Origin: Acidobacteriota bacterium
GTDB taxonomy: Bacteria; Acidobacteriota; Terriglobia; Acidiferrales; UBA7541
Reading direction: 5' to 3'
DNA: 58,104 nucleotides
NCBI GenBank assembly: GCA_003224235.1
Contig: QHYU01000184.1
Span: forward strand, 1-58,104
The notes under the pieces are model-generated. The model worked only from the letters and a program-made list of their open reading frames with translations, had not been told where the DNA came from and ran no database searches. Positions within the stretch are counted from its first letter, which is position 1. Every line of letters starts with the position of its first letter. Shown in pieces: positions 25,406 to 58,104 of the stretch. The position numbers were made by a program, and so were the translations under genes.

Positions 25406-26942
<1,537 letters not shown>

Positions 26943-50631: not shown

Positions 50632-51351
50632 ATGAAATACCTAAGAATTGCGGGCGTCGCGGTAGCGTTTTATGCCCTATTGTCGGCCGGGCTGCTGGCC
50701 GTGATGTATCAGCCTCCAGACAGGTTTGGTCAAATCATGGCCAAACTGCCGAGGCCGCTGTTCTTTATCCTGCCCTTCAAACCGCTCTGGTACCTGGCTC
50801 GCGCGGGCCACGTGAAGGCGGGCGATACGGCGCCGGATTTTTCACTCGAGACGGTAGACCACAAATCTCGGGTGCAGCTTTCCAGCTTTCGCGGGAATAA
50901 GCCTGTCGTCCTGGTGTTTGGCAGCTACACTTGACCTCCGTTTCGCCGGGAGGTTCCCGCGCTCAACAAGCTTTACCAGCGGTACAAGGACCAGGTGGCG
51001 TTCTACGTGGTCTATATCCGCGAGGCACATCCGAGCAATGGCTGGCAGGTGACCAGCAACATCAAGGACAATGTGGTCTTCGCCAGCCCACAGAGCTTTG
51101 AGGAGCGCAGCGGGGTAGCGCGGATGTGCGTGGTGAAACTGGGCATCGAGTTCCCCGCGCTGATCGACAATTTCGATAACTCGACCGAGACCACCTACAC
51201 CGGCTGGCCGGATCGCCTCTACGTGATCGACCGCGAGGGACGCATCGCGCACAAGAGCGGACCAGGGCCGTTCGGCTTCAAGCCCGAGGAAATAGGCAGA
51301 GCGCTGCAGCGGCTGGTTCCGCAGCCAACCACGAACGCAGCAGTCCAATAG
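50632..51351 (+). CDS. Deiodinase-like thioredoxin-fold selenoprotein (TGA read as selenocysteine)
   Basis: The frame from ATG 50632 continues through an in-frame TGA at 50932-50934 to the stop at 51349-51351, giving 239 residues with U at position 101. Around it the sequence reads GSYTUPPF, matching the (G)S-x-T-U-P-P-F active-site signature of iodothyronine-deiodinase family proteins (T4_deiodinase/redoxin fold). N-terminal helix (VAVAFYALLSAGLLAVMY), then APDFSLETVDHKSRVQL typical of thioredoxin-like redoxins; after the U, VAFYVVYIREAHPSNGWQ and TGWPDRLYVIDREGRI are normal family blocks. Both halves share one frame and one domain, so the TGA is unlikely to be a real stop. Probably a membrane-anchored redox enzyme; substrate unknown. 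A SECIS-like hairpin follows the TGA. Confidence 0.88.
50932..50961 (+). other. Candidate bacterial SECIS element after the TGA codon
   Basis: Bases 50944-50961 fold as CG-(C)-CGGGA, loop GGT, TCCCG-CG, with the apical loop 17 bases after the TGA. Opening the terminal A-T pair gives an AGGTT loop, close to the AGGUCU loop of the E. coli fdhF SECIS. An alternative stem pairs CCTCC (50935-50939) with GGAGG (50949-50953). Folding is by eye, not by energy calculation. Confidence 0.65.
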
Positions 51352-57643: not shown

Positions 57644-58104
57644 GTGAAAACTCCCACAACCTTCGGCGCCTTCCAAACGACCTTCGCCGGCGGGCCGTCT
57701 AACGCCATCGTGACCAAGCTGAATGCCGCGGGTTCCGCGCTGGTCTACTCTACCTACCTCAGTGGTAGCGGCGGTGACAACGGCCTTGGCATCGCGGTGG
57801 ATTCCGCCGGCTCCGCCTACGTGACGGGAGTTACGAATGGCAACTTCCCCACAACCCCCGGTGCCTTCCAGACGACTTTCAGCGGCGGGCCCAATGACGC
57901 CTTCGTAGCGAAGCTGAATGCCACGGGTTCCGCGCTCGTCTACTCTACCTACCTGGGCGGCAGTGTCAATGAAGAGGGCTCTTCCATCGCCGTGGATTCC
58001 GTCGGCTCCGCCTACGTGACAGGGGCTACAAGTTCGACTGACTTTCCCACAACCGCCGGCGCTTTCCAGATGACTTTCGGCGGTGGCAGCGGTGACGCCT
58101 TCGT
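57644..58104 (+). CDS. SBBP-repeat protein, truncated at both ends
   Basis: From a possible GTG at 57644 the frame is open to the window end. It starts in the middle of an SBBP (seven-bladed-propeller-like) repeat ([20 protein letters not shown]) and continues with units of the form [26 protein letters not shown] and [11 protein letters not shown]. There is no signal peptide, and the first repeat is incomplete, so the 5' end looks lost; it may be a pseudogene or a fragment. SBBP proteins are typically surface or secreted. Confidence 0.55.

Follow-up and report, generated by a model that had tools for sequence, protein, structure and literature searches.

The question raised by this locus is whether an in-frame TGA terminates translation or encodes selenocysteine (Sec). 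The gene lies in the window analysed here, a 58,104-nucleotide stretch of contig QHYU01000184.1 from an Acidobacteriota bacterium (GCA_003224235.1), where the forward-strand frame extends from the ATG at 50632 to the TAG at 51349-51351 (50632-51351 with the stop codon counted in; 239 amino acids including Sec101). Only one TGA was detected inside this frame, at 50932-50934, corresponding to codon 101 in the active-site context FGSYTUPPFRR. A sequence-only reading had placed a deiodinase-like selenoprotein at exactly these coordinates, with a GSYTUPPF site at the TGA, and had predicted that standard gene calling would yield two short genes; indeed, the standard open reading frame (ORF) list broke the frame into 50632-50934 (100 amino acids) and 50995-51351 (118 amino acids). 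The selenoprotein proposal was supported by the results described below, with "deiodinase-like" denoting homology and not deiodinase activity.

Comparison with protein families revealed that the whole read-through frame matched the Pfam T4_deiodinase model (PF00837) with 116.3 bits (E = 1.7e-33), passing the curated cut-off of 27, and the part after the TGA alone scored 80.6 bits (1.4e-22) against the same model. The part before the TGA aligned with the beginning of both the Redoxin and the AhpC-TSA model. Alignment with the T4_deiodinase and redoxin families, which had been suggested as a check, thus recovered thioredoxin-fold sequence on both sides of the TGA, as had been claimed. The domain was assigned to 50806-51318 on the forward strand (approximately residues 59-229; the Pfam match covers residues 59-227 and fold matches in the PDB span residues 58-236). 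Moreover, dN/dS against the closest homologue (L023) was 0.16 before and 0.16 after the TGA, synonymous sites being near saturation in more distant pairs, and purifying selection among the closest relatives is strong and similar on both sides.

Long matches to the gene were found in 16 of 61 related genomes (the host's own counted), each with a TGA inside and one locus with two. Scanning genome contigs yielded 18 loci: Acidobacteriota MAGs accounted for 15, a single Rhodospirillaceae bin for two, and a deltaproteobacterial bin for the last, a distant thioredoxin-like Cys match. Further loci came from searching 396 genomes across the phylum, and after pooling and de-duplication, 49 distinct loci (the host's included) had a stop at exactly the place of codon 101, which was TGA in all 49 and TAA or TAG in none. 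Eight more distant relatives carried Cys at the site (GSYSCPNFR, GSITCPVF, GSHSCPVYR and similar). Close homologues ending at the TGA had been named as grounds against the Sec reading; those found continue through it, and Cys homologues exist. In the tree, a distant group united Sec forms (L090, L091, L094 and L097, the last with a UPYC motif) and Cys forms (L086-L089, L092, L093 and L095) in one clade, which suggests Sec/Cys exchange within the family.

A SECIS-like hairpin was identified at 50945-50961 on the forward strand, with GGU at 50952-50954 as its apical loop, which lies 18-20 nt downstream of the TGA. In a codon-shuffle test, in which the encoded protein and the codon usage of the gene were both preserved, the hairpin at this fixed position reached a summed score of 670 over the 49 loci versus 357 ± 26 in the shuffles (z ~12, which is not a probability, since the test takes related sequences as independent), and z did not exceed 4.2 at other positions along the gene. 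Among 19 sequences in one register, compensatory changes occurred in six of seven pairs and 89.5% of cells paired, and the covariation score was 0.363, compared with 0.086 for shuffled sequences and no more than 0.25 for slid positions. The host gene's own hairpin was unexceptional when considered alone (codon-shuffle p = 0.12; single-sequence folding z = -0.68), and the SECIS claim therefore rests on the family. A simple free-energy codon-shuffle test gave a weak signal for individual sequences (p < 0.05 for 16 of 49), and it was the fixed-position test that proved decisive. The loop was located approximately 3-4 nt further from the TGA in L029, L030, L074, L079 and L082, indicating that the SECIS register differs between branches; such loci (e.g., L030 and L074) escape the fixed-position test. 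Overall, the hairpin is a predicted bacterial SECIS element, with a small apical loop containing G.

If the TGA encodes Sec, the organism should carry selA, selB, selC and selD, as the sequence-only reading had pointed out, and all were found in the host genome (a 4.57-Mb draft, 99.4% complete, in 237 contigs): tRNA-Sec scored 67.8 bits (family cut-off 47) with the anticodon TCA (UCA) by ARAGORN, selB 366 bits (cut-off 242), selA 534 bits (cut-off 268) and selD 364 bits (cut-off 125). Another tRNA-Sec match (48 bits) was rejected as a tRNA-Ser by ARAGORN. The host selD harbored its own in-frame TGA (VKAAG-U-AAKLSPG; L018:1531-1533, genome contig C159) and, after it, a hairpin with GGUCU in the loop; this second selenoprotein supports use of the Sec pathway. 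In addition, of the 16 related genomes that carry the gene, 15 had a selB match above the cut-off, and the remaining one is a bin that is 59% complete. Nine further genomes also harbored the gene, six of them with a clear tRNA-Sec; among the other three, two had selB over the cut-off and the third had selB split over two contigs. In one related genome, an apparent decayed remnant of a deiodinase-like gene (L037:1501-1662; G060 contig C258) adjoins selB, which looks like a recent loss of this gene.

Three other explanations of the TGA were considered alongside Sec. A real stop, meaning that the gene has decayed or is in fact two short ones, would agree with the two ORFs of standard gene calling and with the relic near selB, but the second ORF begins mid-fold, selection is alike on the two sides, and the flanking frames are intact in 49 distinct loci where TGA is never replaced by TAA or TAG, making this explanation very improbable. 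An open frame alone would also suffice for UGA being read as another amino acid (Trp, or via a near-cognate suppressor); however, the full Sec machinery in the genome, the SECIS hairpin, and the presence of Cys rather than Trp in relatives without the TGA render it extremely unlikely. A sequencing or assembly error that made TGA out of TGC or TGT might be imagined in a draft of 237 contigs whose gene has Cys relatives, but it is practically negligible, being refuted in practice by the same TGA in dozens of independent assemblies and opposed by the covarying hairpin after it. The UGA at 50932-50934 is almost certainly read as selenocysteine, residue 101 being Sec, and a well-supported selenoprotein is thus added that standard annotation cuts in two.

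The AlphaFold model, built with 43 aligned sequences and with Cys standing in for Sec, showed a mean pLDDT of 95 and a pTM of 0.90, and consisted of a long N-terminal helix (residues 2-25), short linker helices and then the thioredoxin fold. The N-terminal helix (50635-50706, forward strand) is hydrophobic and is preceded by Lys or Arg in many relatives; it probably anchors the domain at the outer face of the inner membrane, according to the predicted topology. The nearest solved folds were mouse Dio2 (9h48; Z 21.7, rmsd 2.9) and Dio3 (4tr3; Z 21.6, rmsd 2.8), with 172 residues aligned, followed by the ResA and AhpE folds (Z 17-18), and the best solved-structure match by sequence was also Dio3 (E = 1.8e-24). 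Residues S98, T100, Sec101, Y128, E131 and H133, kept in 42-43 of 43 relatives, match Ser167, Thr169, Sec170, Tyr197, Glu200 and His202 of Dio3, for whose active-site residues roles have been described (PMC7506546, PMC11592359). The loop Trp (Dio3 Trp207) was kept in 38 of 43 relatives, and no His was present at the place of Dio3 His219 in the alignment to 4tr3. As a candidate resolving cysteine, Cys166 (codon 51127-51129, forward strand; helix 156-170) is put forward purely as a proposal: it was kept in all 22 members of the closest branch and absent from the second main branch, and is therefore not general for the family.

Flanking the gene are a divergent gene whose product has an alpha-amylase domain and a convergent gene for a HAD hydrolase. 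No recurring operon partner was detected across the neighbourhoods of the loci compared, which consequently gave no lead on function. Proteins resembling TonB receptors and FG-GAP/UnbV proteins, identified by eye and not by family search, recur near a few loci but in varying place and strand. Elsewhere in the window, a complete 16S rRNA gene was found at 25406-26942 on the forward strand (1554 bits), and the entire 58 kb gave no match to 23S, 5S or tRNA, which suggests unlinked rRNA genes. A 195 bp tandem repeat at 57653-58104 forms part of an open frame that continues past the end of the stretch (58,104).

A mechanism can be proposed from the established Sec pathway and from homology and fold. 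SelB would bind the hairpin and deliver Sec-tRNA-Sec to the UGA at 50932. Sec101, which opens the helix that follows strand 92-97, would then serve as the nucleophile in its selenolate form, with Thr100, Tyr128, Glu131 and His133 (Thr169, Tyr197, Glu200 and His202 in Dio3) positioning it. The substrate that it reduces would be small and either oxidised or a soft electrophile; the reaction would most likely follow a thiol/peroxide-type cycle on the periplasmic side of the membrane, and the Se intermediate may afterwards be resolved by Cys166 or an external thiol. The single N-terminal helix with basic residues ahead of it would account for the periplasmic placement. Taken as a whole and including this mechanism, the best explanation is very probably a membrane-anchored deiodinase-like thioredoxin-fold selenoenzyme, with an activity predicted from homology and fold; the periplasmic redox role in particular is predicted with somewhat better than even likelihood.

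Thiol/peroxide-type redox chemistry is the most likely predicted activity, and reductive dehalogenation is a serious alternative, likewise predicted, which competes for the function only, given that the Sec reading is common to both. If the protein is a genuine reductive dehalogenase, acting in bacteria as a deiodinase or debrominase, it would use Sec101 to abstract halogen from an aromatic substrate, as the animal enzymes do. The Dio2 and Dio3 matches by fold and by solved-structure sequence, the UPPF motif, the retained Y-E-H network and loop Trp, and the counterparts here of the residues needed for Dio3 activity (E200, T169 and S167; PMC7506546) are consistent with such chemistry. However, Dio3 His219, which has been tied to substrate binding (PMC7506546), is not His in this protein, the ResA and AhpE folds come next after the deiodinases, no dehalogenation gene was recognised among the neighbours, which vary between genomes, and thyroid hormones are not expected in bacteria (PMC1088965). 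True dehalogenation is accordingly a possible but minority reading. It is unlikely that the Acidobacteriota branch is a membrane-anchored selenodehalogenase that deiodinates or debrominates environmental haloaromatics with an animal-type UPPF site, a prediction that, if true, would mean that dehalogenation chemistry predates thyroid hormone.

With respect to known systems, the sequence-only reading was right about the selenoprotein, but the family is not new to bacteria: deiodinase-like selenoproteins with bacterial SECIS elements, together with Cys forms, have been described in bacteria since the Sargasso Sea study of 2005 (PMC1088965). They were counted again in the GOS study of 2008, where no motif was listed (PMC2398784), and reviews of 2022 (PMC9312934) and 2026 (PMC13188914) list the bacterial family with a UxxC motif, given for an example sequence and not stated as a requirement. 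In the literature searched, no function was found for any bacterial deiodinase-like member; a search of partial coverage returned no relevant report joining Acidobacteriota, selenoprotein and deiodinase, which is weak evidence of novelty. Regarding NCBIfam NF038285 (deiodinase_rel, "deiodinase family protein"), residues 63-225 match model positions 178-340 and 43 of 43 aligned relatives match, but the first 177 model positions are unmatched and the score of 219.5 bits is below the 250-bit cut-off; the protein is a relative of this family and not a member by the family's own rule. ResA/TlpA thiol-disulfide oxidoreductases and AhpE-type 1-Cys peroxiredoxins share the fold and the place of the active residue, whereas the present protein has no CxxC and their fold and sequence scores fall below those of the deiodinases.

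With mouse Dio2 and Dio3, the protein shares the thioredoxin fold and the GSxTUPPF and YIxEAHPxxGW motifs, and, like animal deiodinases, it is predicted to be membrane-anchored. It differs in having approximately 30% identity to them and a SECIS of bacterial type inside the coding region, and in lacking both His219 and the Cys found in Dio3 two residues before Sec. The tree placed mouse Dio2/3 next to the other bacterial branch, but the branches are long and the placement is weakly supported (80/41), and no claim on origin is therefore made. Compared with the bacterial deiodinase-like family, PF00837, the active-site Sec, the SECIS just after the UGA and the existence of Cys forms are all shared, but UxxC is listed there, whereas the present protein has UPPF, as in mouse Dio2 and Dio3, and an N-terminal membrane helix. 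Other loci from Acidobacteriota have UPYC or CPVFC forms, and the contrast between UPPF and UxxC thus looks like a difference of sub-type. Bacteria were already known to have this kind of protein; the distinctive point is a broad Acidobacteriota branch of deiodinase-like selenoproteins, which, by virtue of its UPPF site and predicted membrane anchor, resembles the animal enzymes more than the listed UxxC type.
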